Source of the DNA: Antedon mediterranea
Taxonomy: Eukaryota; Echinodermata; Crinoidea; Comatulida; Antedonidae
NCBI RefSeq assembly: GCF_964355755.1
Contig: NC_092672.1
Coordinates: 18,040,501 to 18,104,500 of the forward strand
Direction of reading: 5' to 3'
DNA length: 64,000 nucleotides
Below are positions 3,772-63,040 of the stretch, piece by piece. Under the pieces are notes generated by a model that saw only the letters and a list, made by a program, of their open reading frames with translations, searched no databases and was not told the origin of the DNA. Both the position numbers and the translations under genes were made by a program. How positions within the stretch are numbered: position 1 is the stretch's first letter; every line of letters begins with the position of its first letter.

Positions 3772-4000
3772 ACTGCTTCACTATTTTAAGTTTTCATGCA
3801 ACTCAAACACTTTCTCAATGCATTATTCTTCATGAAGTGCTTATGGAAATCAAACTTTCATCATCAAGTAAGGCTGAAAAAAAAAAGCATTTATTATCAA
3901 ATGGGGACTGTATTTTCCAGTTTGTTCCTAAAATATGGGTTTAAATGAAACTGTTGAAGCAGACCTTTTTCATTGGAATCATCAATCAATTGGAATCTTG
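3772..4000. other. Upstream flank of the ALKBH2-like gene
   Basis: Unannotated AT-rich sequence directly 5' of the ALKBH2-like start codon. It presumably contains the 5' UTR and promoter, but I cannot identify a TATA box or initiator with confidence. Confidence 0.4.
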
Positions 4001-4220
4001 AATTGTGGGAAGACTGTCATACCAAAATCGGTCCGGGCCAAAATCGGTCTGGCGGACCAGTTTTGGCTGCCGAAATCGGTTCGGGGGACCATTTATGGCT
4101 CCCAAAACCTGCCTGGCCAGACGAATTTTAGCGCCTGGATAAAATTGGTCCAGGCAGTAAGACTGTTTTTGGCCACCAAATATGGTCCAGTCTTACAAAT
4201 ATATGGTGCGCAAAATTAGT
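4001..4220. repeat. Degenerate short tandem repeat around AAATCGGTCCGG
   Basis: Irregularly spaced variants of 'aaaatcggtccgg', 'gaccagttttgg' and 'cctggccagac' appear in both orientations. They leave a short open frame that is a by-product of the repeat. Confidence 0.4.
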
Positions 4221-4287
4221 CATTTATTAGAAATTAGATATTCAAATGATAATAATATGTATAACCCATTGTTTAATACCTACCCTG

Positions 4288-4352
4288 GGGCGGATCCAAG
4301 GGGGGGGGGGGTCCACGGGGTCCGGACCCCCCCTAAATTTTAAGGGTGCCCT
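4288..4352. repeat. G-run/C-run palindromic stretch
   Basis: Runs of G and C flank GGTCCACGGGGTCCGGACC, a self-complementary GC-rich segment in AT-rich DNA. It looks like the end of a decayed repeat. No boundary can be set. Confidence 0.35.
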
Positions 4353-4726
4353 TTTTTTAAGAGGTTCAATATTTTATTCGTGTGACATATTTGTGTGTAT
4401 ATTAGTATGCACAGAGTAGGTTACACTAACCGCAAAAATAAAAACAGAAATTTATCACAATGCGCGCAATGTTAAGTTACGGCGGCCGATCAAAGAGCAT
4501 CGTGAGAGGTGGTGACGCGTGATGATCTCTACTGTACTTAAACTTCTAAAAATAGATAGTTTCACATACTACAGAGGGAGCATGTAAACTTTTTACGATT
4601 CAACTCCGCGTACGTTACCATGCCCGCTATGTCATTGACGCGATTATTTATCCATTGGTAAACACATTTTTATTTATTATTATTCTGAAAATAATTGAAC
4701 TGTACCACAAATAATTACCGATTATT

Positions 4727-5535
4727 ATATATGTTATGCGCGATTTGAACGATTTGCGCAATTTGAAATTGCGCAAAAAAAATCCTTGCGCAATTTGAAT
4801 TGAAACATGTGTTTCAAATTGCGCAAGCAACGTATTAAATTGCGCAAGTAATCTGCAAATTGCGCAAGGTTTTTCGACAGATTGTGAAATCATGCACACC
4901 CATATTTTTATAGTAATTTCTAAGAATGATTCAAAATTAAAGATAAATATCGCATTTCCTTATTTTAGTAGTGCAAATATTGTTATAAGTTAGCATACCG
5001 TCGAAGAACCGACGAAGGAAAACGAAGCGGTGGTGTTCCACCAGGCGGGCGCGGCGCGGGCGGCCGGCTATACTACTCTAGCCTAGCTAGGGTCTGGACT
5101 ACTGATACTGACTAGGTTACATGGCCTAGCTTAAACTAATATTAAAAACTTAAAAAGTGAGTATTAAACATTATCTTCATTGAAATGGTCTTATTTATAT
5201 AATAAAATACTAAATTTTAAACTCCTCTGCCTAGTCCTAGCCTAGCCATGTATGGGAAAATTTTACAGTTCGTTTTCAAATTGCGCAAAGGTGTCATATT
5301 GCGCAAGAACTATCTTGCGCAATTTACAAATTGTGCAGCGCAATTTAAAATTGCGCAAAGATTTTCTTGCGCAATTTGAAATTGCGCAAGTTGATTGCGC
5401 AATTTCAAATTGCGCAAAAAAATCCTTGCGCAATTTTAAATTGCGCAAGAATTCTTTGCGCAATTTCAAATTGCGCAAGGATTTTTTTGCGCAATTTCAA
5501 ATTGCGCAAATCGTTCAAATCGCGCATAACATATA
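4727..5535. mobile_element. Foldback-like element with TTGCGCAA palindromic arrays
   Basis: Both ends carry TATGTTATGCGCGATTTGAA in inverted orientation, followed inward by tandem arrays of a palindromic unit close to TTGCGCAATTTGAAATTGCGCAA (4740-4870 and 5275-5515). The roughly 400-bp middle includes a GC-rich patch near 5010-5070 and no gene. Short ORFs spanning the arrays are translations of the repeat. I found no convincing target duplication. Confidence 0.7.
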
Positions 5536-5539
5536 CATC

Positions 5540-6190
5540 AAGTTCATGTTTATTATGTCAAAGGTCAATAACTTTACTTCCGGTCATTATAACAAAATTT
5601 TGCATTACAATAAATATAAATATGTATAGTCTCAGCAATTTGAGACCATTTTTTAATTTTAATGACCAGCCGTTTTTTAGATACAATGCAAGTCAAGGTC
5701 AAAGGTCAATAGAGCAGAAAAAAAATTCCTATTACATTTTGTCAAAATGTTCCATTACAATGAATATAAATATGCTCCGATGCTGTACTTTTCTACTAGC
5801 CTACAGTAAGTTAAAAAATCAAACAGAGCATTTGCCAAAAGTACTATATTTTATTTTTACTTATTTATTTTCTCATATTAGATCAACAGAAAGGAAAAAT
5901 AATTATACACTAAATAAATTTATACCACAAAATGATTAACAAGCAGTAGACAGACAATGAAAGCAGCAATAAACAACAACAATTTTAAATATTTGTTTAT
6001 TCCAGTGCCCTATTCATATGTATTAACAATACTTTAAATAAATAATGATTATAGGCCTACATCTATTATTATTGTCATTTATATGTGCATATCTTGATCT
6101 ATCTTCTTTAGGAAAACCGGTATCCGTATTCCATTATTCTTGATTTTTCAAAAACGTCAGCAATACCAAGCAAGTAATCAAAAAGTTGTT
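5540..6190. other. Intergenic, no recognisable feature
   Basis: AT-rich sequence with weak internal repetition ('aaaggtcaata..' and 'attacaatgaatataaatatg' recur). No supported gene. Confidence 0.4.
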
Positions 6191-6197
6191 ATTTTTA

Positions 6198-6360
6198 ATT
6201 TACCTCCGCCAAGGAGGTATATGTAATCGATCGCGTGTGTTTGTCACTTTGTTTGTTTGTTAGCAGGATATACTTAACAAGATCTTTCCCAAAATGAAAA
6301 TACAGATAGATATGTGGTCAAGGACCACTCCATTAAATTTTGGAGGCAATCCGGACCACA
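6198..6360 (+). repeat. Dispersed repeat starting CCTCCGCCAAGGAGG
   Basis: The stretch opens with the self-complementary CCTCCGCCAAGGAGG and continues through 'tttgtttgttagcaggatat' and 'ttttggaggcaatccgga'. I recognise this arrangement as a family common in marine invertebrate genomes. It lies immediately upstream of the decayed hAT gene. Confidence 0.5.
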
Positions 6361-15289: not shown

Positions 15290-16096
15290 TTGATATTTTT
15301 TGGGGGAGATCTGGTATTAGAAACGACAGAAACAGACACGGTGGTGGTGTTCTGATAGCATGCAAAAATTCCATAGATGTAATACCTGTGGACATTGACA
15401 CAAATATTGAGATTCAACTGGCTGAAATCCGAAACTCGAAACATCCGAATAAAATGTATAAGTGGAAAAAATACAGAAAATTTAGTAACGCATTGCGTGA
15501 AACTACGAGAAAGTCTCATTATGATTACGGTACCTCCATAATCTTAGTTTAGGCTGTAAATTTAATCCTAAACGATTTTGGTCATATGTTAAGAAAAAAC
15601 GAAAATGTGCAACAGAAAGAAAGTATATTTACACGGCAATATCATAGATTCAGATTTAAATGCTACTAAAGCATTTTCGATATATTCTCAGTCTAATTTT
15701 ACTGAAGATAATGATGATTTCAATGTAAGAAACGAAACATCTTATTGTAATCACAGTGAAATTGTCTTACCTTTAACTAGTATTTTCATCAATAGGGATC
15801 CAATGTTCCGTGCCCTGTTATCTTTAGATACTAATAAATCCCCTGGACCCGATGGGATTACCCCTATGATGTTGAGTATGGCTGCACCTGTTGTATCCAC
15901 AATTTTGCTTAAGATTTTTCAAATGTCCCTTGACCAAGGCATTGTGGTGAAGGAATGGAAATTGGCCAATGTTGTGCCAATTTTTGTTGGTAAAGTTCTA
16001 GAACGTATTGTGGCTGATAATTTTTTATTTCATCTTCAATGTAATGCGTTTGTTAGTCCTGTACAGCACGGGTTCTATCCTGGAAGATCTTGTGTT
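15290..16096 (+). pseudogene. Jockey/CR1-like LINE ORF2, left part (interrupted)
   Basis: The left portion shows a fragment of the endonuclease domain (NRHGGGVLIACKNSID near 15335-15380) and then the start of a reverse transcriptase: LLSLDTNKSPGPDGITPMML (15820-15870), WKLANVVPIF, VGKVLERIVADNF and HGFYPGRSC. Stops and shifts occur between the domains, so the copy is dead. At 16097 the frame is cut by the palindromic Polinton-like element. The same gene resumes at 26233. Confidence 0.8.
16091..16096. repeat. Target-site duplication TGTGTT, left copy
   Basis: The six bases TGTGTT immediately precede the AG terminus of the palindrome and are repeated at 26233-26238. A 6-bp duplication is the Polinton/Maverick integration signature. 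Confidence 0.85.
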
Positions 16097-16652
16097 AGTA
16101 GTATAGTTCCCCGTTCAGTCCAATGAATAATTCATAAATTAATTAATGAATATTAATATATTAATTATGAGTGTACTATTTATGAATAATTAATTAGGGG
16201 GTAGTTTTATGAATATTTAATAATTAAAATGGTATTATTTTTTAATAAATGAATAAATTAATTTGTTTAGCGATCTCAGTCCAATGAAGAAGTAATAAGA
16301 TGTTTTAATATTCATGAATATTAATATATTTTTATTAATATGAGGGGTGTTTTAATGAATAATTAGTAAATGAGTGATAGTTTTACGTATAATTTTTAAA
16401 CGTAATACATGTATTACATGATGTTTAAATAAATATTTACATTTAAATATTAAAGACAATGTGCTTACCTTCATTGAGAAGTCTGATGTACAGTTTAATG
16501 AATAAAATCCACAAGTTTAATCAGCTTTGATTACTGTTTTTTATGTTTGTATAAGGAATCATAACATCAATTCGCTGTCTTTCCATGGAATTAGTTTACA
16601 TGTGAGGCGTGGACAGGTCATTTTTTGTAATTCTGTGATTTTAGCGGGTATG

Positions 16653-16660
16653 TGACGTCA
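16653..16660. promoter_or_regulatory. CRE-like palindrome TGACGTCA, left arm copy 1
   Basis: A perfect TGACGTCA with a CCAAT motif ('aaccaataag') about 15 bp away. This pairing is typical of CREB/ATF plus NF-Y promoters. Function is inferred. Confidence 0.45.
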
Positions 16661-17054
16661 TCCGGCAATGAACCAATAAGATTCCTTATAAGCATAATGC
16701 TAATGAAATTAGAATTCGTTGTCCTTGTTGAGATATTCAAAGATATTAAAAGTTATTTAATTATTTTATTAGTTTTTTATCCTTTTGTTTTTTCGTTTAG
16801 TTAAATAACCGCATTATTTTTTAAGGGTATTCCTTCAATATATAAAGATGGTAATAAATAAATAAATAAATAAAAATTAAAAATAATGTGCTTACCTTCA
16901 TTGAGAAGTCTGATATTATAGTATATTTTAATGAATAAAATCTACAAGTTTAATCAGCTTTGATTACTGCTTTTTTTATATGTTTGTATAAGAACAAAAT
17001 CATAACATCAATCCGCTGTCTATTTTTTCAAATCCTGTGATTTTAGAGGGTATG

Positions 17055-17062
17055 TGACGTCA
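17055..17062. promoter_or_regulatory. CRE-like palindrome TGACGTCA, left arm copy 2
   Basis: Second copy in the duplicated module, again followed by 'aaccaataag'. Conservation of both motifs in a diverged duplicate suggests selection, though a recent duplication would also explain it. Confidence 0.45.
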
Positions 17063-17333
17063 TCAGGCAATGAACCAATAAGATTCCTTATAAACATAGT
17101 GCTAATGAATTAATCTACCAATCATAATTCGTTGTTTTTGTAAGCGTAGCGATCTCAGTCCAATGAATAAGTAATGAGATGTTTTAATATTCGATCGTGA
17201 ATATTAATATATTTTTATTAATATGAGAGTGTTTTAACGAATACTTAGTAATTGCGTTGGTATTTATTCTATGAATTATTGAATTAAGTATGATATATGT
17301 AAATTGTTTTATTTTTAACACGGTACCTGATTT

Positions 17334-17350
17334 ACTATATATATATACAG
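17334..17350 (+). promoter_or_regulatory. TATA-like tract before the 230-aa ORF
   Basis: TACTATATATATATACAG lies about 95 bp upstream of the ATG at 17441. It could be a TATA box, or simply an AT repeat. Confidence 0.35.
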
Positions 17351-17440
17351 ATTGTTAATTTGAAAACAGTACAGTTTTCCTGCTTTAGATTTTTAACATT
17401 TAGTCATCTGTTCTTTATCCTGCTGTTATTATCTATCAGG

Positions 17441-18133
17441 ATGAATTCTACTCAAAATCAATCCGGTAGTAAGAGAGTTTTTTCTTCTTCAAAAGGACAG
17501 AGTCCTGTATCTAATCGAGTAAAGATACACAAAGTTTCACATCAACACGGCACAGCAGTACCTTCAAATTGTATGACGTGTTTAATGGCGATTCAACCTC
17601 CACCTCCAATGAACGTTGATTTCAATAATGTATCTAATACTGAAGAAGACGAACATTATAGATCGAGAATAATTTCTGAAGAGGAGAGGATTGTATACGA
17701 CGACACGTCATCGGTAGTTGACTACCACCTATTTCTGGCAAGAAAATCCGATGTAGAAGATGAGGTAGAAGATGAGGTGTTTGCAGAAGAGTACCTGAAC
17801 CCTGTGCTGGAGGCGGAGATTAAGAAAGAAACTACCGAACTTGAGTACAAAGAAATAATGAGAACAATTGAGAAGGTTTTCATAGAAGAATTTATGTTCA
17901 TTCTGAAGGACATGGTTGAACGTTATAACTTTCACGGCTCAAGATATGAACAACTCTTAACATTTTTTCGACCAATTCTGGCATTGAAACTTGTGGACAA
18001 TAGCGCTACCCATTTTGAATGGGCGCTAAACTACTTTCATTTACGTTGTATCAATGTTGATGCGTTCGATAAAGCCATAAAGTTGATTACAAATGATTCA
18101 GAGCTTTTTAATAAGATTCTTTACCAATTGTAA
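17441..18133 (+). CDS. Unrecognised 230-residue protein, left-arm copy
   Basis: The frame stays open upstream to about 17360 without an ATG, so I start at 17441. Directly before it, 'ttattatctatcag' looks like a splice acceptor, so a 5' leader intron is possible. The product has a polar Ser/Lys-rich N-terminus, a CMTC motif near residue 46, a proline run, an acidic middle with a DVEDEVEDEVF repeat, and a helical C-terminal region of about 95 residues (EIMRTIEKVFIEEF.. to ..ELFNKILYQL). I recognise no family. Both arms keep it open with only two residue differences, which implies recent function or homogenisation. The position, the first gene in from the tip and transcribed inward, might suit an early or accessory protein of a Polinton-like element. 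That is inference. Confidence 0.7.
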   Translation: MNSTQNQSGSKRVFSSSKGQSPVSNRVKIHKVSHQHGTAVPSNCMTCLMAIQPPPPMNVDFNNVSNTEEDEHYRSRIISEEERIVYDDTSSVVDYHLFLARKSDVEDEVEDEVFAEEYLNPVLEAEIKKETTELEYKEIMRTIEKVFIEEFMFILKDMVERYNFHGSRYEQLLTFFRPILALKLVDNSATHFEWALNYFHLRCINVDAFDKAIKLITNDSELFNKILYQL

Positions 18134-18244
18134 TTTGTACAAATTTAAAATAATATCTTAACACTTTTTTAATTAATGTTACATAATTTTATAATTCTTA
18201 TTTCTTTTCGGTAAATTTATTATTATTATGGTTATAATTTATAT

Positions 18245-19380
18245 TGAAATAGAATGCGTGTTAAAATAAAGGTTGTGTTTTTTTCTTTTAAAAGCAACAA
18301 CAACAAAAATGAAATTTGATCTTTGCGTGTTATTTAAGTATTTGATTTATTTTTTTAATTTTCATTTGGGTGAATGAGGGTAATGAATATGGATGAGTAC
18401 TTAAGAAAAGTATATTAAGATCCTAAGCATCCTGATAGTTTTGGTGGTGTGGACCGACTTTATCAAAATGTAAAAGACGATTTAAATATTACCAAGAGAC
18501 AAGTTCAAGACTGACTGAACAAGCAATACATTACACACATCCATACAACGTAAATTCAAACAAAACTGGGTACTTGTAAGTGCTATTGATGAACAATAGG
18601 GAATGGATTTGGAAAAATAACGTGTATAAAATTTGATTCAGACAAACTGTTTGCAAAATCAAAGGTTTGACTCTAGATTTCCAAAAATCAAAGGAAGTCA
18701 ATTTTGAAATAGTTGGTAGCATGGTACGAGGAATCGGACTGGAAAAAATAACAACAACTAATCCTAACAAAATAACCCGTAAACCAAAATCTCACTTAAT
18801 ATTTATTTTGTATTATAAATTTGTAAAAGTAGTTACCCTATTTTAATTCATGGTAAATTTATTTTTCGAATTAATTTAATTTGTTTTATTTTCTGTTGAA
18901 TTTTTATTATTATTATGTTTGTAAAGTGTATTGCAATAGATTTGTTTAATAAAATAAATTAATTATGTTTTGACTTAATTTATGTCAGTGTAAATTTGTA
19001 AAAGTAGTTTTCCTATTTTAATTCATGATAAGTTTATTTCTTGACTTTACTTAATTTTTTTCTTTTCTGTTGAAGTAGAATGTGTATTGAAATACATTTT
19101 GTTTTTAACATCAACAACAAAAAATGAAATTTTATCTTTGCGTGTTGTTTAATTCGTGTATGATGTTTTTCTAATTTATTTAAAAAAAAAAAAAAAAAAG
19201 AAAACAAGTTTTTGAATTTGTTAAATGTAATTGCAAACATACAAAATAAATGATTGCGATTAAAAATTATATTTTGTAAAGTGTATTACAATAGAATGTG
19301 TATTGAAATACATTTTGTTTTTAACGTCAACAACAAAAATGAAATTTGATCTTTGCGTGTTGTTTAACTCGTGTATGAAG
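18245..19380. repeat. Three copies of a roughly 95-bp UTR-like repeat, left arm
   Basis: 'aacaacaaaaatgaaatttgatctttgcgtgtt' with the preceding 'gaatgtgtattgaaatacattttgttttta' recurs at about 18250-18345, 19075-19155 and 19285-19375. A 'gtaaaagtagtt(a/t)cc..ctattttaattcatg' block is also duplicated (18822 and 18997). The AT-rich DNA contains several AATAAA motifs. It is mirrored in the right arm. Confidence 0.6.
18383..18755 (+). pseudogene. Broken Polinton/YMD3-type integrase remnant, left arm
   Basis: Translation from the ATG at 18383 gives DEYLRKVY, a stop, DPKHPDSFGGVDRLYQNVK, ITKRQVQD, a stop, then after a frame change QRKFKQNWVLVSAIDEQ, a stop, and GMDLE. This order (SFGG(V/I)xxLY, isoleucine-x-(R/K)-KxV, RRKFxRNxVxV, IDxQWxxDL) is the N-terminal part of integrases of Polintons and the C. 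elegans F54H12.3 type. The Trp after the third motif has become a stop. The catalytic D,D-E core is missing, so it is certainly inactive. It is transcribed inward, downstream of the 230-residue ORF. Confidence 0.7.
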
Positions 19381-19887
19381 TTTTTGAATTTGTTAAATGT
19401 AATTGCAAACATACATATTAAATGATTGTGATTAAAAATATTCTGTTTACTTTTTATTTTTTATTTTAAACAGTAGTATTTTTAACAGTAGTTATATTTT
19501 ATATATAATAAGTAATATTACAAAAATAAACATACAAAATGTATAAAGTATAGACTTATTAAATTTAAATACAATTTCTTTTTTTCAAAATGAATTTCAT
19601 TTTATACGTGTTTTCAATTTTAAATCTTTTAAGAAAGACACAATACGTACTGATATAAAAACGCACACAAAAGGAAACAAATTTGAGACGCACGGTTTGT
19701 AACGACACTTTCAATAAGAAGGCATATTATAAATGTATTTTTACAAAATTTATAAAGTAAATGTTTATTATTGAGAAATATACATTTTAGATAAATGATA
19801 ACACATCTAAAAGTAATTAGAGAGATCAATACAATATGGTGTTCATAATAATTTGTTTTGATGACTAGACGAAACATCTGAAGACAT

Positions 19888-20452
19888 TCAACGAAAAACA
19901 AGCGTTAACACCATACCAGTCACTAAAAATGCCACTGCTTTGAAAAAAACATCTCCCTTCCTACACAGAGACAAATTCTGAACGAAAATAATAAATAAAA
20001 ATAATTAGTAAACAAAACACGCGCATTATAAATAAAATGAATAATTTAAGAATATTTGTTAAACTACCCACGAACAAAAAACGAAACATACTAACCGACT
20101 CATCGTCATTACGAAGTTCAAATAACGAAAACTTTTCCTTGAAAAATCCACAGGAGACACGTTTTACATTTTCTAACTGCAATTCAGTGTCACATTGTGT
20201 CGCAACACATGTACATACAACGAGTCCTGTCACAAGTCTGCCGACGTTTATTTTTCTATCGCTCATCATTTGTTCTAATACATAATACAGCGCTTCCAAA
20301 GAAATATCTTTACACAATTCTAACACATTAAAATTGTTTTCCAACTCTTTACAAGCACGAATAGTACTCTGGAGGATGGGTGAATCCAAAACAACTAACC
20401 CCGTCAATTTATATTCAATGTATGCTAAAACTACTTCCTCTAAATCAACCAT
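19888..20452 (-). CDS. Bcl-2-like apoptosis regulator, two exons, left-arm copy
   Basis: Mirror copy of the right-arm gene. The ATG is at 20450-20452, exon 1 spans 20096-20452, a putative intron 19978-20095 and exon 2 19888-19977. Exon 1 has the same BH4-, BH3- and BH1-like segments as its partner. Without splicing the frame reads into the intron and stops at 19961, giving a different hydrophobic tail. See the right-arm entry for the domain argument. Confidence 0.65.
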
Positions 20453-20990
20453 AACGCTCGACAAAACAAATGATAATGGATGTAATTACCAAGAAAGTTA
20501 CAACTTAAAACCTTTATTTTTGTTTTTAAAAGAAGTTGTAACATAGAAACTAATTTTGTCCGGAAATGTGTTTTTATTATTTATGTGATTTATTTGTGTT
20601 TAGAAAGTTACAACATTAACATTTAATTTGGTAAAAAAATGTGAATAACCCATTGTTCCGACAGAAGCTAATGATATTTACAAAGGATGACACACTTTGA
20701 ATAGAATAAATACCGTATAACATAATTAAATTTTGTCAAGATAGTTGTCAAAAATAAATAAAATATATTATACTGAATTTACTTTGTACATTTATTTAAT
20801 TTAGGCCGTAATTAGGTTTATTGTTCATTTATGATTGTGAAAAAAAAAAAAAATACATACTAATAAAACAGCATAGGCCTATAAAAAAAGTAAAAAAAAA
20901 AATAATGATTCAGTGTTATAATTTTATTTACCTGTCATTATGTTAATAAAACATATTTAAATTTAATTTATGTCATGTTAGATATATTTT

Positions 20991-21200
20991 CAAGGACATT
21001 TGTTACATACAAATAATTTTGTAAAGAAATTTGTTACATAAGATAAATTTGTTAAGAAGTTTGTTTCATAAAAATATTTGTGAAGATAAATTTGTTACAT
21101 AAAAATAATTTTGTAAAGAAATTTGTTACAAAAATTTATTTTTTACAAGAAGTTTGTAACAGAAAATTATTTTGCAAAGAATTAGTTGCATCAATTGATT
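20991..21200. repeat. Central spacer: about seven 30-bp AT-rich tandem units
   Basis: Units resemble 'gaaatttgttacataaaaat' plus 'aattttgtaaa'. They run in one direction and are not inverted about the centre, so this segment is the true loop between the arms. The repeat breaks the symmetry and fixes the inversion axis near 21095. Confidence 0.75.
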
Positions 21201-21540
21201 TTATATATCTAACATGAAATAAATTAAATTTAAATATGTTTTATTAACATAATGACAGGTAAATAAAATTATAACACTGAATCATTATTTTTTTTTTTAC
21301 TTTTTTTATAGGCCTATGCTGTTTTATTAGTATGTATTTTTTTTTTTTCACAATCATAAATGAACAATAAACCTAATTACGGCCTAAATTAAATAAATGT
21401 ACAAAGTAAATTCAGTATAATATATTTTATTTATTTTTGACAACTATCTATCAAAATTTAATTATGTTATACGGTATTTATTCTATTCAAAGTGTGTCAT
21501 CCTTTGTAAATGTCATTAGCTTCTGTCGGAACAATGGGTT

Positions 21541-21681
21541 TCTTTTCTTTGATCATGTAGATTTCCAATTTCAATCCATTTCTATATGTCTAATCTGCAA
21601 TCATTAATTTCCGTTCGCTCTTTTTTTGTTTATAAAATCTCTCACTATACTAAGGATTAAAAATTACAATCGGCTCCGTAT
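21541..21681. other. 141-bp block present only in the right arm
   Basis: The left arm joins 'aacccattg' directly to the AT-rich 'aaaaaaatgtgaat' tract near 20648. The right arm has about 141 bp of unique sequence between the matching parts. It has no TIRs or target duplication, so a deletion in the left arm is the simpler explanation. Confidence 0.7.
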
Positions 21682-21875
21682 ATTCACATTTTTTTACCAA
21701 ATTAAATGTTAATGTTGTAACTTTCTAAACACAAATAAATCACATAAATAATAAAAACACATTTCCTGACAAAATTAGTTTCTATGTTACAACTTCTTTT
21801 AAAAACAAAAATAAAGGTTTTAAGTTGTAACTTTCTTGGTAATTACATCCATTATCATTTGTTTTGTCGAGCGTT

Positions 21876-22440
21876 ATGGTTGATTTAGAGGAAGTAGTTT
21901 TAGCATACATTGAATATAAATTGACGGGGTTAGTTGTTTTGGATTCACCCATCCTCCAGAGTACTATTCGTGCTTGTAAAGAGTTGGAAAACAATTTTAA
22001 TGTGTTAGAATTGTGTAAAGATATTTCTTTGGAAGCGCTGTATTATGTATTAGAACAAATGATGAGCGATAGAAAAATAAACGTCGGCAGACTTGTGACA
22101 GGACTCGTTGTATGTACATGTGTTGCGACACAATGTGACACTGAATTGCAGTTAGAAAATGTAAAACGTGTCTCCTGTGGATTTTTCAAGGAAAAGTTTT
22201 CGTTATTTGAACTTCGTAATGACGATGAGTCGGTTAGTATGTTTCGTTTTTTGTTCGTGGGTAGTTTAACAAATATTCTTAAATTATTCATTTTATTTAT
22301 AATGCGCGTGTTTTGTTTACTAATTATTTTTATTTATTATTTTCGTTCAGAATTTGTCTCTGTGTAGGAAGGGAGATGTTTTTTTCAAAGCAGTGGCATT
22401 TTTAGTGACTGGTATGGTGTTAACGCTTGTTTTTCGTTGA
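21876..22440 (+). CDS. Bcl-2-like apoptosis regulator, two exons, right-arm copy
   Basis: Start ATG at 21876. Exon 1 (21876-22232, 119 codons) has a BH4-like helix (LEEVVLAYIEYKLTG, compare the ELVxDFLxYKL pattern), a BH3-like helix (ILQSTIRACKELENNF), and a BH1-like segment with KINVGRLVTG, where Bcl-2 proteins have NWGR; the Trp is Val here. A donor TCG|GTTAGT and an acceptor TTCGTTCAG allow an intron 22233-22350. Exon 2 (22351-22440) then adds a short polar stretch and a hydrophobic segment of about 17 residues before the stop, as in tail-anchored Bcl-2 proteins. Predicted length is 148 residues, short for the family. Family knowledge: such proteins act at mitochondrial/ER membranes, and virus-like elements often carry them as death inhibitors. 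Pro- versus anti-apoptotic activity cannot be read from sequence. Confidence 0.7.
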
Positions 22441-22949
22441 ATGTCTTCAGATGTTTCGTCTAGTCATCAAAACAAATTATTATGAACACCATATTGTATT
22501 GATCTCTCTAATTACTTTTAGATGTGTTATCATTTATCTAAAATGTATATTTCTCAATAATAAACATTTACTTTATAAATTTTGTAAAAATACATTTATA
22601 ATATGCCTTCTTATTGAAAGTGTCGTTACAAACCGTGCGTCTCAAATTTGTTTCCTTTTGTGTGCGTTTTTATATCAGTACGTATTGTGTCTTTCTTAAA
22701 AGATTTAAAATTGAAAACACGTATAAAATGAAATTCATTTTGAAAAAAAGAAATTGTATTTAAATTTAATAAGTCTATACTTTATACATTTTGTATGTTT
22801 ATTTTTGTAATATTACTTATTATATATAAAATATAACTACTGTTAAAAATACTACTGTTTAAAATAAAAAATAAAAAGTAAACAGAATATTTTTAATCAC
22901 AATCATTTAATATGTATGTTTGCAATTACATTTAACAAATTCAAAAACT

Positions 22950-24083
22950 TCATACACGAGTTAAACAACACGCAAAGATCAAATTTCATTTTTGTTGTTG
23001 ACGTTAAAAACAAAATGTATTTCAATACACATTCTATTGTAATACACTTTACAAAATATAATTTTTAATCGCAATCATTTATTTTGTATGTTTGCAATTA
23101 CATTTAACAAATTCAAAAACTTGTTTTCTTTTTTTTTTTTTTTTTTAAATAAATTAGAAAAACATCATACACGAATTAAACAACACGCAAAGATAAAATT
23201 TCATTTTTTGTTGTTGATGTTAAAAACAAAATGTATTTCAATACACATTCTACTTCAACAGAAAAGAAAAAAATTAAGTAAAGTCAAGAAATAAACTTAT
23301 CATGAATTAAAATAGGAAAACTACTTTTACAAATTTACACTGACATAAATTAAGTCAAAACATAATTAATTTATTTTATTAAACAAATCTATTGCAATAC
23401 ACTTTACAAACATAATAATAATAAAAATTCAACAGAAAATAAAACAAATTAAATTAATTCGAAAAATAAATTTACCATGAATTAAAATAGGGTAACTACT
23501 TTTACAAATTTATAATACAAAATAAATATTAAGTGAGATTTTGGTTTACGGGTTATTTTGTTAGGATTAGTTGTTGTTATTTTTTCCAGTCCGATTCCTC
23601 GTACCATGCTACCAACTATTTCAAAATTGACTTCCTTTGATTTTTGGAAATCTAGAGTCAAACCTTTGATTTTGCAAACAGTTTGTCTGAATCAAATTTT
23701 ATACACGTTATTTTTCCAAATCCATTCCCCATTGTTCATCAATAGCACTTACAAGTACCCAGTTTTGTTTGAATTTACGTTGAATGGATGTGTGTAATGT
23801 ATTGCTTGTTCAGTCAGTCTTGAACTTGTCTCTTGGTAATATTTAAATCGTCTTTTACATTTTGATAAAGTCGGTCCACACCACCAAAACTATCAGGATG
23901 CTTAGGATCTTAATATACTTTTCTTAAGTACTCATCCATATTCATTACCCTCATTCACCCAAATGAAAATTAAAAAAATAAATCAAATACTTAAATAACA
24001 CGCAAAGATCAAATTTCATTTTTGTTGTTGTTGCTTTTAAAAGAAAAAAACACAACCTTTATTTTAACACACATTCTATTTCA
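22950..24083. repeat. Three copies of the roughly 95-bp UTR-like repeat, right arm
   Basis: Mirror images of the left-arm copies at about 22953-23043, 23173-23253 and 23983-24078, each with 'aacacgcaaagatcaaatttcattttt'. Confidence 0.6.
23573..23945 (-). pseudogene. Broken Polinton/YMD3-type integrase remnant, right arm
   Basis: Mirror of the left remnant, with the same stops and frame changes. Both arms share the same lesions, so the integrase was dead before the arms were duplicated or last homogenised. Confidence 0.7.
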
Positions 24084-24194
24084 ATATAATTTATAACCAT
24101 AATAATAATAAATTTACCGAAAAGAAATAAGAATTATAACATTATGTAACATTAATTAAAAAAGTGTTAAGATATTATTTTAAATTTGTACAAA

Positions 24195-24887
24195 TTACAA
24201 TTGGTAAAGAATCTTATTAAAAAGCTCTGAATCATTTGTAATCAACTTTATGGCTTTATCGAACGCATCAACATTGATACAACGTAAATGAAAGTAGTTT
24301 AGCGCCCATTCAAAATGGGTAGCGCTATTGTCCACAAGTTTCAATGCCAGAATTGGTCGAAAAAATGTTAAGAGTTGTTCATATCTTGAGCCGTGAAAGT
24401 TATAACGTTCAACCATGTCCTTCAGAATGAATATAAATTCTTCTATGAAAACCTTCTCAATTGTTCTCATTATTTCTTTGTACTCAAGTTCGGTAGTTTC
24501 TTTCTTAATCTCCGCCTCCAGCACAGGGTTCAGGTACTCTTCTGCAAACACCTCATCTTCTACCTCATCTTCTACATCGGATTTTCTTGTCAGAAATAGG
24601 TGGTAGTCAACTACCGATGACGTGTCGTCGTATACAATCCTCTCCTCTTCAGAAATTATTCTCGATCTATAATGTTCGTCTTCTTCAGTATTAGATACAT
24701 TATTGAAATCAACGTTCATTGGAGGTGGAGGTTGAATCGCCATTAAACACGTCATACAATTTGAAGGTACTGCTGTGCCGTGTTGATGTGAAACTTTGTG
24801 TATCTTTACTCGATTAGATACAGGGCTCTGTCCTTTTGAAGAAGAAAAAACTCTCTTACTACCGGATTGATTTTGAGTAGAATTCAT
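24195..24887 (-). CDS. Unrecognised 230-residue protein, right-arm copy
   Basis: Mirror copy of the left-arm ORF, start ATG at 24885-24887. It differs by Thr for Ala (FLTRKSD) and Ile for Met (EEFIFILK). The frame is fully open. The TATA-like tract is mirrored at about 24978-24994. Confidence 0.7.
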   Translation of the reverse strand: MNSTQNQSGSKRVFSSSKGQSPVSNRVKIHKVSHQHGTAVPSNCMTCLMAIQPPPPMNVDFNNVSNTEEDEHYRSRIISEEERIVYDDTSSVVDYHLFLTRKSDVEDEVEDEVFAEEYLNPVLEAEIKKETTELEYKEIMRTIEKVFIEEFIFILKDMVERYNFHGSRYEQLLTFFRPILALKLVDNSATHFEWALNYFHLRCINVDAFDKAIKLITNDSELFNKILYQL

Positions 24888-25265
24888 CCTGATAGATAAT
24901 AACAGCAGGATAAAGAACAGATGACTAAATGTTAAAAATCTAAAGCAGGAAAACTGTACTGTTTTCAAATTAACAATCTGTATATATATATAGTAAATCA
25001 GGTACCGTGTTAAAAATAAAACAATTTACATATATCATACTTAATTAAATAATTCATAGAATAAATACCAACGCAATTACTAAGTATTCGTTAAAACACT
25101 CTCATATTAATAAAAATATATTAATATTCACGATCGAATATTAAAACATCTCATTACTTATTCATTGGACTGAGATCGCTACGCTTACAAAAACAACGAA
25201 TTATGATTGGTAGATTAATTCATTAGCGCTATGTTTATAAGGAATCTTATTGGTTCATTGCCTGA

Positions 25266-25273
25266 TGACGTCA
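25266..25273 (+). promoter_or_regulatory. CRE-like TGACGTCA, right arm inner copy
   Basis: Preceded by 'cttattggttcattg' (inverted CCAAT). About 155 bp downstream, toward the element tip, ATGAAG|GTAAGC at 25428 looks like a short first exon with a donor. This suggests transcription outward through the tip, or a leader exon. Confidence 0.4.
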
Positions 25274-25668
25274 CATACCCTCTAAAATCACAGGATTTGA
25301 AAAAAATAGACAGCGGATTGATGTTATGATTTTGTTCTTATACAAACATATAAAAAAAGCAGTAATCAAAGCTGATTAAACTTGTAGATTTTATTCATTA
25401 AAATATACTATAATATCAGACTTCTCAATGAAGGTAAGCACATTATTTTTAATTTTTATTTATTTATTTATTTATTACCATCTTTATATATTGAAGGAAT
25501 ACCCTTAAAAAATAATGCGGTTATTTAACTAAACGAAAAAACAAAAGGATAAAAAACTAATAAAATAATTAAATAACTTTTAATATCTTTGAATATCTCA
25601 ACAAGGACAACGAATTCTAATTTCATTAGCATTATGCTTATAAGGAATCTTATTGGTTCATTGCCGGA

Positions 25669-25676
25669 TGACGTCA
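25669..25676 (+). promoter_or_regulatory. CRE-like TGACGTCA, right arm outer copy
   Basis: Same arrangement as the inner copy: 'cttattggttcattgcc' upstream, and ATGAAG|GTAAGC at 25855 downstream. Confidence 0.4.
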
Positions 25677-26232
25677 CATACCCGCTAAAATCACAGAATT
25701 ACAAAAAATGACCTGTCCACGCCTCACATGTAAACTAATTCCATGGAAAGACAGCGAATTGATGTTATGATTCCTTATACAAACATAAAAAACAGTAATC
25801 AAAGCTGATTAAACTTGTGGATTTTATTCATTAAACTGTACATCAGACTTCTCAATGAAGGTAAGCACATTGTCTTTAATATTTAAATGTAAATATTTAT
25901 TTAAACATCATGTAATACATGTATTACGTTTAAAAATTATACGTAAAACTATCACTCATTTACTAATTATTCATTAAAACACCCCTCATATTAATAAAAA
26001 TATATTAATATTCATGAATATTAAAACATCTTATTACTTCTTCATTGGACTGAGATCGCTAAACAAATTAATTTATTCATTTATTAAAAAATAATACCAT
26101 TTTAATTATTAAATATTCATAAAACTACCCCCTAATTAATTATTCATAAATAGTACACTCATAATTAATATATTAATATTCATTAATTAATTTATGAATT
26201 ATTCATTGGACTGAACGGGGAACTATACTACT

Positions 26233-26238
26233 TGTGTT
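26233..26238. repeat. Target-site duplication TGTGTT, right copy
   Basis: Directly follows the CT terminus. With one copy removed, the LINE reading frame is continuous (GRSC followed by VTQASS). Confidence 0.85.
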
Positions 26239-27335
26239 ACACAAGCTTCATCCATATACCACGAATGGTCCAAAATATTAGATGGTACGAACCCACCAGT
26301 CGTCGATGCTATATTCCTTGATTGGGAAAAAGCATTTGACCGTGTGAGTCACCCTAAACTATTACGTAAGCTCCACAATTTTGGTCTATGTGGTCCAATT
26401 TTGAAATGGATGGGCTCCTTTCTTACTGATCATTGCCAACAGATTGTCCTAAATGGACTGATATCTGACCGTACGCCTGTTGTTTCAGGTGTACCTCAAT
26501 GGTCGGTACTTGGCCCATTACTTTTCAACTCGTTCGTTTTTTACCTCCCTATGTCGATCAACTCTCAAAATATGACAATATGCCGACGATACGGTGGTGT
26601 TTAGGTCAATTAGATGTGAATATGATGCGATATTACTTCAAAAAGATCTAGATAACATCGATGAATAACATGATGAGACTTAATGCTAAAAAATGCAAAG
26701 TTCTCCATATTACTCGCAAACGTAATCCCATTCATGCTCGTTATCATATTCACACTAATGACCTTCAGGCAGTTACCTCCTACAAATATCTTGGTATTCA
26801 CTTTGAAAGCAATCTCTCTTGTCAACGCATGTGTCCGCAATTACCACAAAATATCTCCAAATTGTCGGATTCATAAAGCGTTTAGTGATATTTAACGACC
26901 CTGTAGTTTTGATGAGGCTTTTTAACGGTTTATGTAGGCCCATACTTGAGTATGCTGCCCCTGTTTGGGTGCCTCATCAAAAACAACATATTACTAGCAT
27001 AAATAAACCTCTTCGAAGGATCACAAAATTGTGTGCTAAGGGCGATTACGAGCAACGGCTTGAACATGGACCAGAGAGTGTGTTTTCTCAGTATACTTTT
27101 TATTATGAAATGTTTGTATGGTCGAATTGATCTTAATATTCATGATTTTAATCCAAGATATTCCGAATCAGTTATTTTTAAACACAAATATGCCAGAACC
27201 AATTCTTTTAAATATTCATTGTACACTACTTTTCCCCGTGTATGGCAAGAGATTCCTAATTATATTAGAGAACATTCTTTATTTAGTTTTAACACATTTG
27301 TGACAGCTCTCCGGTCTTATGTCAGGCAACTTTAA
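26233..27335 (+). pseudogene. Jockey/CR1-like LINE ORF2, right part
   Basis: Continuation of the reverse transcriptase cut at 16096: AIFLDWEKAFDRVSHPKLL (motif A, 26310-26370), SGVPQWSVLGPLLF (26485-26530, Gly replaced by Trp), ADDTVVF (26582-26602, catalytic motif C), AKKCKVLHITRK and YKYLGIHF. The C-terminal region has PILEYAAPVWVPH and ends ALRSYVRQL before a stop at 27335. Frameshifts near 26560, 26650, 26850 and 27100 make it a pseudogene. Confidence 0.8.
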
Positions 27336-27485: not shown

Positions 27486-27837
27486 AGTGCGGTTCTAGGA
27501 CACCTACCCCCTAGACAGTTACCCCCCGGATGTTTACCACCCGGACAACTACCCCCTTAGGACAACTACCCCCCGGACAACTACCCCCCGGACAACTACC
27601 CCCTTAGGACAACTACCCACTTAGGATAACAACCCCCCGGACAACTACCCCCCGGACAACCACCCCCTTAGGACAACTACCCCCTTAGGATAACTACCCC
27701 CCGGGTAACTACCCCCCCGGTCAACTACCCCCCGGTCAACTACCCCCGGTCAACTACCCCCCCCCCCCCCCCCCCATCCAAAAGTAGACAAATATATAGG
27801 ACCGGTTTCTGTAAAAATGAAATCATCTGTTTTTAAC

Positions 27838-28278
27838 GGGTGTTTCGAAACTAGAGACCCGAGACCAGAGACCTGACACGAGACCCAATACGAAAAGGGA
27901 GACCTATATTTGGGTCTCCCTTTTCGTATATTAGGGTCTCCCTTTTCGTCTAGTGTGGTCTCTCTTTTCGTATAGTGGGGTCTCCCTTTTCTTATAGTGG
28001 AGTCTCCCTTTTCTTATAGTGGGTCTCCCTTTTCGTATATTTGGGTCTCCCATTTTGTATATTTGGGTCTCCCTTTCGTATAACTGGGTCTCCCTTTTCG
28101 TATATTTAGGTCTCCCTTTTCGTATATTAGGGTCTCCCTTTTCGTATAGTGGGGTCTCCCTTTTCGTATAGTAGGGTCTCCCTTTTCGTACGTGGGTCTC
28201 CCTTTTCGTATATTTAGGTCTCCCTTTTCGTATTGGGTCTCTGGTCTCTGGTCTCGGGTCTCTAGTTTCGAAACACCC
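27838..28278. mobile_element. Nested 441-bp TIR element with 9-bp target duplication
   Basis: It starts GGGTGTTTCGAAACTAGAGA and ends with the complement. Inverted ends are about 65 bp. The flanks GTTTTTAAC (27829-27837 and 28279-28287) are a perfect 9-bp duplication. The core is a tandem array of about 19-bp units (GGTCTCCCTTTTCGTATA). GG..CC ends with a 9-bp duplication fit a Mutator-like MITE, by inference. Confidence 0.75.
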
Positions 28279-28289
28279 GTTTTTAACCG

Positions 28290-28920
28290 ATTATTCTGTT
28301 TAACAGCACGCTAGACCCTAGATGCGCTAGATTTAAAGTACCGTATTTAATGAAAAAACGGCCTGGGCTGTTTATTGTTTAGGTGGTTTTTAGGTGGACA
28401 TTTATTGGAAGAAAGTTGTTTATTCAATGGGAGGGGGTATAATCTAATGGAAATAGACGCCGATTATTCCATATGATGTTTCATGGGAGTGACATGGTCA
28501 CCGTTTATTTGAGGGGAATTTATTTAAAGATCGACGTTTATTCGGTGAGTGAACATTGAGGTCAAATATCAAAAGTGATATTATTCTTCAAGTGTACAAA
28601 AATACATATAATTATGACAAATTTGAGACAAAAATTAATTCTTTTAAGACCAGTAGTTATCGAAGCATTGTCCTGACGCAAAAATTATTATTATTAGCGA
28701 ACCCAGTCTTTACAGTAAATACAGGGAGTACTATATAATACGTTCGACTATCCTATTATCATGTGTGACAATCTTCAGTTTATACCAGGCTATATTTATG
28801 TTCAATCTTTTACTTTTGTTTACAATGGTGAATAGTAATTCGTCAAAGTAACGAATTAAAATATAGTTATTAATTCCTATTATACACTGTTGCAGAGTCA
28901 GGTTGTTGAATGGTCTGGGT
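28290..28920. other. Interior of the foldback element, no gene recognised
   Basis: AT-rich sequence with repeated 'tttattg' motifs. A 60-codon frame at 28556 has no recognisable features. Confidence 0.4.
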
Positions 28921-29318
28921 GGTTAGGGTGTTCTAAAGGGATAGTTTTCTGGGTGGTAATTGTCCGGGGGGTAATTGTCCGGAGGGTAATTGTTCCTAGG
29001 GGGTAATTGTCCGGGGGGTAGTTGTCCAGGGGGTAGTTGTCCTAAGGGGGTTGTTGTCCTAAGGGGGTAGTTGTCCGGGGGGTATTTGTCCGGGGGGTAG
29101 TTTTCCTAAAGGGGTAGTTGTCCTAAGGGGGTAGTGGTCCAGGTGGTGGTTGTCCGGGGGGTAGTTGTCCGGGGGGTAAATGTCCAGGGGGTGAATATCC
29201 GGATACGAAAATTAATGACTGTTCGAATACTAAAACATCCTTAGAATATCTATAATTATCACACACTAAATTAGAAAAAACATTATGACGCCATTCCTGT
29301 TTTGAGATGTCACTCAAT

Positions 29319-35164: not shown

Positions 35165-37387
35165 TATTATAATTCTGTGTTTTATATGTATATATATATA
35201 TATATATTATATATATAAAAACAAAGGTACATTTGTAACAATTAATTATTTGCATGAATATTTCTCTTTCTATTGTATATTACTACGATTTTTACAGTGT
35301 TAAAAGTAGTTAAATTGCAGGCATATTTACATAAAAAGATGATTGATTTCAATATAAAACCATATGCTTTCATTTACAATCTTAAAAAAGATGGTAATTA
35401 AAATATAAAGATAAAACATGGTAATAAAATTCTGTGAACTGTCATTGAAATCGTTCTTATAAAATCTTGTTCATGTTCGGGCAGAGAGGCTATAAACTCA
35501 GAGAAGGCGTATAAAATATCATCCCTTTTCACCCAGACAAAAAGGATGAGATGAAAAAAGATGAATGCAAAAGTTTGAAAACTAGATAATAAGGATGATA
35601 GCATAGGATGATATTTAAATGAAAACCCTAAGCACTGTGCAAGTCCAAGATGCCAATTTGGCTCTGTGTGCATGTGAGACGCTTCATACCCGATGTCATC
35701 TTATTATAATACTACTTCAGTGTACAAAAAAAAACAATATTGCATTTTAGAAAATATGAAAAAACACTTCATACAAATTATATTCATGCTATCAATTGTA
35801 GCAGAGTTTCTTTTTTTGCACCCCATTTACGTTGTGTCTTAATTAAGTTACACATAATATGTTCATTTTCTAATAGATTTTTAACTTCAGCAGTGAAAAG
35901 AATCCAGATCTTTTTTTTATCATCTTTATCATTTCTTCCAGCTTTGGATATTATGTGTACCTTGTATATACAGAATAAAAACAGAGAAATCAATTCATTT
36001 ACAATATTGTTTTTTGTTCCTGTAACAATTTTAAACTAAGTAATATTATCTTCAGCTGGAAAGCAAACAGCCAGCACATCTTTAAATTTGTGCCATGTCC
36101 ATTGAATGGCATTGCATTCAAACAGCATGTGTTGTTCACTTTCTATCTGATTTATACAATTGTCACATAAATTGTTTTCTGCTAGATTCCATAGTTTTAA
36201 TCTTTTTTTACACGGTAATATTCGATGTAGGAGTTTAAAGTTGAATTGAGCAACTTTACTATATGTTTCATCTTGTATACCTTATAATACCATACTTTAT
36301 TCCAATCTATTTCTACGTTATTTAGCTCACATTCCTATTTTTTTTTTGTGAACCTGGTTCACTGGAACAGTTGTTTATAAATATTTATAGTAGATAGATC
36401 CTTTAATGTTCGTATGCAACAATGAATCATTATTGCCTACATCTTGATTATTTGTATTGTCTTTTCTAATAATTTCTTTCCACTCATTTGGTATGGCATT
36501 CATAAGCTGTAAATATTCAATTAAATCATTATGTTTTTTATACAAATTTGAAATTATTTCCCCTGCAGTACATACTCTATCATTTATAAATATATCACCA
36601 ATTGTTTTATAATCAGAATATAACCATGATTTGAAGTACAATGATTTATTGTTAGATAATATAAACTTATTTTCCCATAATTGCTGATTTTTTATTTCTA
36701 TTAAAGTTGTTGGTTTTGGATACACAATATTATTAAATTTTACTACAGCATTAATCATGTTCTTGTAGAATGTAGGCATATCTCTCAAGTTAGCATGATC
36801 ATGTACATTAAGTTTAGTACTTTTTATTGTATATTCAATTGGGTGAAGGAAATATTTTGGTATGCATTTCCATTTACCTGGATCTGGACCTAACAGTCGC
36901 TTGACCCAATTTAGTTTAAGTTATTCAACCACAGAGCTAACATCTGGCATGTTTAAACCACCTTCTTTAATATTTTTAATTAAGGTTGTTCTCTTTATCT
37001 TTTCTCTTCTATTTGTTTAACTATATCTTTTGGAACATCAATTATACTTGCGTTATATATAAACTTACACAAAGCAAGTGTTTTAATAATAGTGATTTTA
37101 CCAAAAAATGTAAGATTCCTTCTTTTCCATAAGTTTAATACATTTTCTAGATTGGTAATATTTTTGTCCCAGTTTCTCTTCTCACATAAATGCTTATTGT
37201 AACCTACATGGATTCCTAAAAAAGGGTTCACTAGTCCATGTAATATCTAATGGTCTTGAAACACTATTTTCGTTTTCACCAATCCACATACCATTTGTCT
37301 TTTTTCTATTTAATTTTAACCCTGAAACACTACAAAATGACTCAATCTCATTCAAGAAATATTTTAAACTACCTTCATCATGTGAAA

Positions 37388-38171
37388 CAAGGCCAACAGC
37401 CATTAAGTCGCGTGCTACAATGCATAGTGATACCGGACCGACAGACCGACAGACAGACCGACAGACCGACAGACAGAGAGACCGACCGACCGACATAGTG
37501 AACTATACTGACCGAAATTACTGAACATGTTTAAAAATGTTGAAATGTTTAAAAACATTTATTTTTTTAAAATTTACACGTGCGTAGCCTGTCACTTTCG
37601 ACGTGCTCGTATAACGTAATTTCGAGTTGAAAAGTAAGTCAAGAAAACAGAAATCGGGCAAAAAGAGTGCGTGATAACATTTAACGCGCAGTGCGCGCGC
37701 AAAAATATGCGCACTCATGGCAATTTTGTAAACGCTTAAAATTGCCTGAAATGTACTCTTATTTCATCGAAAATAAATTTTGAAAATGTTAAGCGCGCGT
37801 ACGCATGCGTTACATGCGCTACGCACGTAATTGTATTGCCATATGATGATTTATGCCCTGAAATTTATGAGTACCAAATTTTATTTAATTGTGATTCATG
37901 GTTGTGAAGATATGATTACAAATCGTGCGTAGACCGCGTAATTTTTTATTGCGCACCGTGAAAACATAACCACATTGATTCCTGGCCATAAGGAATATAC
38001 TGTGAAAAATTGACCTAGCTAGATTAAACTGATATCAAGATAAGGTCAGAAAGCGATAAAACGCATAGTGATACCGGACCGACAGACAGACAGACAGACC
38101 GACAGACCGACAGACAGACAGACAGACCGACCGACCGACATAGTGAACTATAGAGTCGCTTCCACGCGACT
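37388..38171. mobile_element. GACAGACC-rich element, copy 1
   Basis: A roughly 780-bp unit with AGTCGCGTG ends in inverted orientation. Each side has a 'catagtgataccggaccgac' or 'accgacatagtgaactata' module around a (GACAGACC)n microsatellite (37435-37494 and 38074-38142). The middle is rich in 'cgcgcgtacgcatgcg'. It interrupts the older LINE just after the ADDTVIF motif. I recognise the layout as a widely dispersed animal repeat. Confidence 0.65.
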
Positions 38172-38724
38172 AAAAATTACGGTGTCATCCGCTAATTGAG
38201 CAATTTTAACGATATTATCATCATCATCGTCAGTGCTATTAGGTAACGTAATTCCTATACATTTAGGATTATTATTATTTCTGACATTTACTGCCATTAT
38301 TTCTTATACCAGAATAAATAGCAAAGCAGATAATGGGCAACCTTGCCTCACGCCACATTCCATTTTAAACTTTTCTGACAACCATCCGTTGTTTTACTAT
38401 TGCACATTCTGTTTCTTTATACATAACCCTTATCCATTTGATTTAAAACCTTAAACAGTAGTATTCTGTCTATTGAATCGAAAGCTTTCGCATAATCAAG
38501 AAAAACAACAGCACCTGTCATATTGCTTTTGTGTAGTTTAGTATGTCATTTACCAGTCTTACATTTTCTCCTCCAAACCTTTTTTTTACATATCTTTTTT
38601 GATCTTCATTTCATCCTATCACATTTTGTAGTCTGTTAGCTAATACATGGGCTAATATTTTAGAATCGACATTAAGAAGAGTAATCGGTCTCCAGTTTTC
38701 TATGTTTTCTCTTTGTCACTTTTT

Positions 38725-50711: not shown

Positions 50712-63040
<12,329 letters not shown>

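Follow-up and report, generated by a model that had tools for sequence, protein, structure and literature searches.

A near-perfect 10-kb palindrome in Antedon mediterranea: a putative non-autonomous Polinton derivative that may descend from an ancestral fold-back

Introduction

How does a near-perfect palindrome of 10 kb come to stand in an animal chromosome, and what keeps its two arms alike? We considered this question for an element found in a 64,000-nt stretch of contig NC_092672.1 of the crinoid Antedon mediterranea (C3:18040501-18104500 in our contig numbering; hereafter the window, with positions counted from its first letter). Long near-perfect palindromes are usually held to be unstable, and palindromes are a known class of assembly artefact. 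The element has the ends of a Polinton/Maverick, a group recognized by 6-bp target-site duplications, 5'-AG termini and terminal inverted repeats. Our analysis points to a non-autonomous Polinton derivative in which the palindrome itself was inherited and in which off-centre turns arose by later central deletions, an account that, taken as a whole, we judge to be moderately probable. As four palindromes share one centre loop and broken copies run on into the second arm, an ancestral palindrome was probably inherited.

Structure and gene content

The element is a near-perfect palindrome of 10,136 bp (window 16097-26232), with arms of about 5 kb and a loop of 215 nt. The element and the frame that it interrupts consist of the following parts:

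15605..16096, plus strand: target reverse-transcriptase open reading frame (ORF), left part
16091..16096, no strand: left copy of the target-site duplication, TGTGTT
16097..20987, plus strand: left arm of the palindrome, tip AGTAGTATAGTTCCCCGTTCAGTCC
20988..21202, no strand: centre loop, single copy, mostly a 31-bp tandem repeat x6 at 20998-21181
21203..26232, minus strand: right arm of the palindrome, with a 141-bp piece at 21541-21681
26233..26238, no strand: right copy of the target-site duplication, TGTGTT
26239..26604, plus strand: target reverse-transcriptase ORF, right part, RVT_1 match

Two pairs of inverted blocks, each unbroken and about 100% complementary, measure 3625 nt (17023-20647 and 21681-25305) and 932 nt (16097-17028 and 25301-26232), and inward of the longer pair smaller inverted blocks follow as far as the loop. 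The outermost 925 nt are identical between the arms (shuffles, n = 200, peaked at 35%), and 15 of 4881 aligned bases are mismatched over the arms as a whole. The termini read AGTAGTATAG...CTATACTACT, that is, 5'-AG ends with terminal inverted repeats, and the 6-bp duplication is exact. An initial annotation, made from the sequence alone, was thus right about the near-identical inverted arms of about 5 kb, the AG..CT termini and the exact TGTGTT duplication. Its statement that the whole element is terminal repeat should be corrected, as the loop and the 141-bp piece, which is missing from the left arm, are single copy. When the empty site was rebuilt by joining the flanks at a single TGTGTT, an open frame of 285 amino acids spanned the junction, and the right flank matched the RVT_1 profile (3.2e-6, 27.4 bits) at slightly under the 29.6-bit cut-off. 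As the flanks join into one open reverse-transcriptase frame, the insertion is clean and both boundaries are exact.

Read from the tip, the arm carries an AT-rich end with repeated blocks of about 430 bp, a 230-codon ORF, an integrase stretch (residues 2-92), a PolB stretch of the same orientation (residues 1474-1536) and, on the other strand, an ORF with a weak Bcl-2-like match; relatives with longer arms also have residues 19-76 of the ATPase, about 350 nt before the centre. In the window these features are placed as follows:

17441..18133, plus strand: 230-codon ORF (ORF257, counted from the first ATG), left arm
24195..24887, minus strand: 230-codon ORF, right-arm copy
18347..18611, plus strand: N-terminal remnant of a Polinton integrase, left arm (residues 2-92, frame broken)
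23717..23981, minus strand: integrase remnant, right arm
18613..18801, plus strand: PolB C-terminal remnant (residues 1474-1536), left arm
23527..23715, minus strand: PolB C-terminal remnant, right arm, bounds set by symmetry
19961..20464, minus strand: ORF of 167 amino acids, weak Bcl-2 profile match, left arm, tentative
21864..22367, plus strand: ORF of 167 amino acids, right-arm copy, tentative

Both integrase remnants consist of two pieces in different frames and were matched at E 2e-19 and 5e-21 when the integrase of a full-length Polinton from the same genome was used as the query. In the right arm, the tblastn stretch for PolB extends over 23527-23868, corresponding to residues 1418-1536, with an overlap into the integrase remnant. 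These remnants are all that the element has in place of its own PolB gene and its own rve integrase, and the window arm gave no match to the capsid, packaging ATPase or protease frames of the full-length element. Two full-length elements have the same tips and PolB, and both are non-palindromic:

C3:24152569-24167193: full-length element, target-site duplication TTTATT
C1:30564179-30582016: full-length element, target-site duplication TACACA

Single frames of the former gave profile matches to DNA_pol_B_2 (1.2e-44), to rve (6.5e-13) together with Chromo (1.5e-8) and to PC4 (6.4e-12), and weaker ones, below the curated cut-offs, to Pox_A32 (7.7e-5) and the adenovirus endoprotease (0.0026). PolB has 2195 relatives at E 0.001 or better, and those named among the 120 listed are mostly invertebrate, including Holothuria, Ptychodera, Dendronephthya, Mya, Mytilus and several beetles. 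Both full-length relatives are Polintons. The tips of the window element are common to the autonomous-looking Polintons L017/L018 and L019/L020 (L numbers are our locus labels). The Polinton kinship and the integrase remnant put forward in the initial annotation are borne out, as is its further proposal of a non-autonomous element that is, presumably, moved in trans. We take the window element to be a non-autonomous derivative and a putative novel variant of Polinton.

The integrase and PolB genes of the full-length element are found close to opposite ends and on opposite strands, and the arm is therefore one end joined to the inner sequence of the other end. We read it as a chimera of the end with the PC4-type and integrase N-terminal sequences and the inner side with the PolB C-terminus, to which the longer arms add the ATPase piece. 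Elements of a second subfamily (L029-L031) have the same integrase and PolB remnants with different outer ends, and in L029 and L030 the N-terminus of the ORF differs from that of subfamily 1. A cargo ORF family (L030, L043-L050) stands behind at least four tips, judged different by eye; Polinton families have thus apparently traded outer ends with one another, on both arms.

The first 44 amino acids of the 230-codon ORF match the N-terminus of the PC4-domain protein of the full-length Polinton at 84%. For the remainder a relative was not found, and ORF257 had none at E 0.001 among 160 candidates (5.8 billion proteins); its predicted structure, with a mean predicted local distance difference test score (pLDDT) of 38, is too poor to be of use. 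The ORF, alone among the genes, was found open in seven of nine subfamily-1 elements, the exceptions being L014 and L015/L016. The ratio of nonsynonymous to synonymous substitution rates (dN/dS) is 0.13-0.40 across diverged element pairs (dS 0.02 or more), and the neutral probability is 0.007-0.28 in 13 of the 15 pairs formed by six copies and 0.37 and 1.0 in the two closest, where it should be considered that the pairs are not independent. Purifying selection on this ORF is suggested, not proved. For the 167-amino-acid ORF, the match to the Bcl-2 Pfam profile (2.3e-4, 22.1 bits) falls under the curated cut-off of 31.4; no relative was found at E 0.001 among 51 candidates, nor in the PDB at E 0.1, and dN/dS between elements is 0.52-1.29 where defined, partly over frame-shifted differing ends. 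The Bcl-2-like label is kept as tentative.

Relatives in the genome

We searched the 354-Mb assembly (18 contigs), keeping matches of at least 100, 150 or 200 bases, depending on the search. A 304-bp tip query gave 62 matches, many of them as inverted pairs, and an 801-base query, taken from the 3' portion of the 230-codon ORF and the 0.3 kb that follows it, gave at least 48 matches with more inverted pairs. As only part of the candidates were scored (40 of 89 for the 801-base query and 40 of 60 in another search), all copy counts are lower bounds. Besides the window element, the following palindromes have their own target-site duplications:

C3:21243348-21255993: palindrome of the window tip family, 12,646 bp, AAACAT
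C6:14678622-14690673: palindrome of the window tip family, 12,052 bp, ACTCTC
C9:17480563-17487521: palindrome of the window tip family, 6,959 bp, ATTATT
C5:16957012-16964377: palindrome, ACGATG
C8:20169332-20180596: palindrome, CTTGTG, left half and right end read
C7:11050158-11061419: palindrome, GAGATG, ends and centre read
C8:7695036-7708358: palindrome, CGTGTC, ends and centre read
C3:21742824-21757458: PolB palindrome, from PolB and tip searches, TAAAAG, ends and centre read

The tip family of the window element, this element included, thus holds four palindromes, and PolB matches lie in both arms of the PolB palindrome (C3:21.75M). A 6-bp duplication was found in nine of the ten palindromes with both ends read, all nine being different, and in all four other relatives with both ends read (L014, L015/16, L017/18 and L019/20). 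Related palindromic copies with independent 6-bp duplications, which the initial annotation had proposed to look for, are therefore present, and no duplication of another length was found among the relatives (L029 is unclear).

Several further observations were made in passing. The 20-nt flank of the single tip at C6:14332008 is the reverse complement of the flank at the C6:14514199 element, and this locus thus seems to have an inverted duplicate at a distance of 182 kb. Within the window, an inverted-repeat element of 2.1 kb (37386-39522) has arms of 537 and 217 nt that are 96-97% alike and contains GACA/TGTC microsatellite blocks, and an element of 1.7 kb (27498-29192) has inverted ends built from a 15-bp unit (GGACAACTACCCCCC), with a 22-bp tandem array between them. 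Minisatellites lie at 44300-44723 (53 bp x 8, 100%), 55004-57415 (55 bp x 44, 99%) and 61420-62562 (53 bp x 21.6).

Origin of the palindrome

The origin is best approached through the points at which the palindromes turn, given here in L021 arm coordinates. Three palindromes (C3:21.24M, C6:14.68M and C8:7.70M) turn at about 6311/6350, which we call centre 1, and the window element turns at about 5253/5036. Other turns lie at about 3510/3738 (C9), 5276/2234 (L016), 6348/474 (L014), 4258/3478 (L029), 4449/2452 (L030), 4259/5699 (L031) and 5840/5498 (C7), none of those measured being beyond centre 1. One centre loop, at arm position ~6331, beyond the centre of the window element, is common to the three centre-1 palindromes and the PolB palindrome C3:21.75M, in which the adjoining arm sequence is just 71-96% alike. 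The loop query matched two more loci on both loop sides (C1:31.30M and C6:14.40M, coordinates only), and at four PolB-bearing loci, two of which are non-palindromic full-length elements, it matched the ATPase part only, the loop being absent. Copies that leave the palindrome run past the closing TTG of the loop into second-arm sequence, by 7 nt in L014, 9 in L021, 9-11 in L055 (by reference) and 17 in L057, after which all four diverge from one another. The retained letters of L057 include CGTAATTA, past the A-run.

Based on these observations, we propose that an ancestral fold-back was inherited as a palindrome and that the window copy has lost its middle, which is probable. The inner portion of a Polinton end on the PolB side would, long ago, have folded back at centre 1, a short inverted repeat, and been copied into a palindrome, and the palindrome, rather than a single arm, would have been passed on through rounds of replication and insertion, with a Polinton-type integrase supplied in trans. 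During replication, the displaced strand, being self-complementary, would snap into a hairpin with the arms as its stem, in which repair or re-copying would equalize the arms, such that changes in one arm, even the replacement of an outer end, would reach both. The elements would then take the form of forward 1..x plus reverse y..1 of one arm, and the off-centre turns, that of the window included, would be later deletions across the centre. The inverted duplication by snap-back suggested in the initial annotation would accordingly hold in kind, as a fold-back, and would not hold as a fresh collapse of one end in this copy, given the shared loop, the chimeric arm and an off-centre turn that fits a central deletion. 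A wider account, in which palindromic Polintons are a long-lived lineage that passes through a hairpin in each cycle, with one arm correcting or templating the other and arms of 5-7 kb evolving as one, and which lives as a parasite of ordinary Polintons, trades outer ends with them simultaneously on both sides and retains the 230-codon gene, can be offered only tentatively, at slightly short of an even chance.

Some observations weigh against inheritance of the palindrome and should be considered together with the alternative that several of them favor, namely that a non-palindromic parent arm refolds at a short inverted repeat at each replication, in which case palindromes with the same centre would be separate events and the other turns other fold-back points. 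Centre 1 has a 9-bp inverted repeat (TTTTCTCAA/TTGAGAAAA), as expected of a fold-back hot spot. Loops of at most 342 nt occur at four of eight distinct turn sites (P 0.026 against random breakpoint pairs within 2234-6350, with the L014 turn omitted and the three centre-1 palindromes counted as one site), and this excess of small loops indicates that fold-back is favored for some turns; the C7 turn, moreover, has a 16-nt overlap. The PolB palindromes at C3:21950000-21952146 (L035) and C9:16694600-16696747 (L036), read at the centre, have one centre in common, which differs from centre 1, lies in L035 about 0.9 kb behind the PolB C-terminus and is apparently a second palindrome origin. The element at C4:17989759-18004211 (L039, L057) is apparently twice folded, its halves mirroring each other about a centre near 17995142 and each containing the centre-1 loop with one side cut short. 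The second centre and the twice-folded element indicate that folding recurred. At C4:31885018-31892142, a PolB fragment is followed 7 kb away by an arm end and then a reversed centre-1 loop. The retained letters in L014, L021 and L055 are mostly A-run and weak evidence, and L057 is therefore the firm case. One palindrome, L029, shows no clear target duplication.

Nonetheless, we consider repeated refolding unlikely. No copy that was read has the loop with a common non-palindromic continuation, as the four departing copies all differ, and the loop is missing from the four PolB-bearing loci that match over the ATPase part. No measured turn lies beyond centre 1. An independent fold-back for every turn was dropped as the leading explanation for these reasons, namely that the PolB palindrome has the same loop, that the PolB-bearing loci do not and that the departing copies enter the second arm.

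The arms themselves bear on the question of when they became alike. Within copies, mismatches between arms number 15/4881, 3/5023, 12/4780 and 6/3332, while copies differ by 0.2-2.2%. In the six copy pairs formed by these four palindromes, we counted 5, 62, 58, 67, 61 and 32 sites fixed between copies and 18, 26, 16, 15, 9 and 14 sites private to a single arm, and in none of the six pairs was a variant common to single arms of different copies; the arms were therefore alike at insertion. The distance between palindromes with the common loop is 1.6-1.8% for C3:21.24M and C6:14.68M and reaches whole outer ends (PolB- or ORF-bearing) for others, and the arms within a copy go together, so that some process equalizes them ahead of insertion. 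The simplest candidate that we infer is a hairpin, formed during strand-displacement replication, in which the two arms pair. This reading, too, has points against it. The site-by-site comparison covers four palindromes only, and the hairpin, as a replication intermediate, is a stage reached by inference, where a repeated snap-back hot spot or gene conversion between arms could likewise yield arms that are alike. The window arms are 0.29% apart and 0.23-0.37% from C3:21.24M, as would be expected if both copies are young. Arms are less similar in other pieces that were read, at 98.7% in L029, 93.1-98.9% in C7 (95.4% at the centre), 95.9-99.65% in the PolB palindrome C3:21.75M and 94.6% in C3:21.95M, which may reflect age and indels.

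Two broken linear copies could also have been joined head to head before insertion, with their tips protected. The junctions at the turns of the window element, L013, L029, L030 and L031, which by eye have either 0-3 bp of microhomology or 2-7 inserted nt, are consistent with such joining, but two molecules drawn from a mixed population would frequently differ, whereas in each of the four palindromes compared the arms were alike at insertion, and the shared loop would be left unexplained. We thus regard end joining as quite improbable. Gene conversion between arms in the chromosome, which keeps the arms of Y-chromosome palindromes alike, would also give near-identical arms with no hairpin stage and is inseparable from it where both arms share derived sites, as at five sites in C3:21.24M. 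However, the window arms share no derived site exclusively (the pattern 11000 is absent from the columns compared), no conversion since insertion is therefore visible in this copy, and conversion does not create a palindrome, which makes it a highly improbable explanation. An assembly artefact, such as a missed adapter or a mirrored read, is barely conceivable, as the flanks differ and join into an open empty site, in nine copies the ends fall at element tips flanked by 6-bp duplications and the arms carry private mutations.

Significance and comparison with known systems

To our knowledge, Polinton replication has never been watched in any animal. A palindrome family in which members have their own 6-bp duplications would serve as a fossil record of that replication, where centres mark the points at which strands folded, differences between arms date the insertions and a common centre reveals inheritance. 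Such a family would, in addition, exemplify long near-perfect palindromes that last and multiply in a genome.

None of the open-access titles and abstract openings covered names a palindromic Polinton; the reading also took in passages of PMC6431247, PMC2836005, PMC11071308, PMC5033970 and PMC12090768. The window element resembles Polintons/Mavericks (polintoviruses, adintovirus-like elements) in its AG...CT tips, which are common to elements bearing PolB and integrase, in its 6-bp duplication and in its integrase, PolB and PC4-type remnants, with the ATPase piece in longer relatives, yet differs in being nearly all inverted repeat and in lacking functional genes for PolB, integrase, capsid and ATPase.

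Beyond Polintons, three systems should be considered, the first two being the closest precedents. Incomplete or defective adenovirus genomes, reportedly described by Daniell in 1976 and by Daniell and Mullenbach in 1978, are said to be short and left-end-derived, with long inverted duplications. They likewise derive from a protein-primed linear DNA virus, but are extrachromosomal products of infection, whereas the elements described here are inserted in the genome and apparently form an inherited lineage. A deletion derivative of the kalilo linear plasmid, which Vierula and Bertrand reportedly described in 1992 as hairpin and duplex DNA, is alike in that it shows both forms of a deleted protein-primed linear element; kalilo, however, is a mitochondrial plasmid and does not integrate with 6-bp duplications. 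Foldback/Galileo transposons share the very long inverted repeats with internal subrepeats, but they make duplications of 7-9 bp and belong to another transposase class, whereas the palindromes of A. mediterranea have 6-bp duplications and Polinton-type tips.

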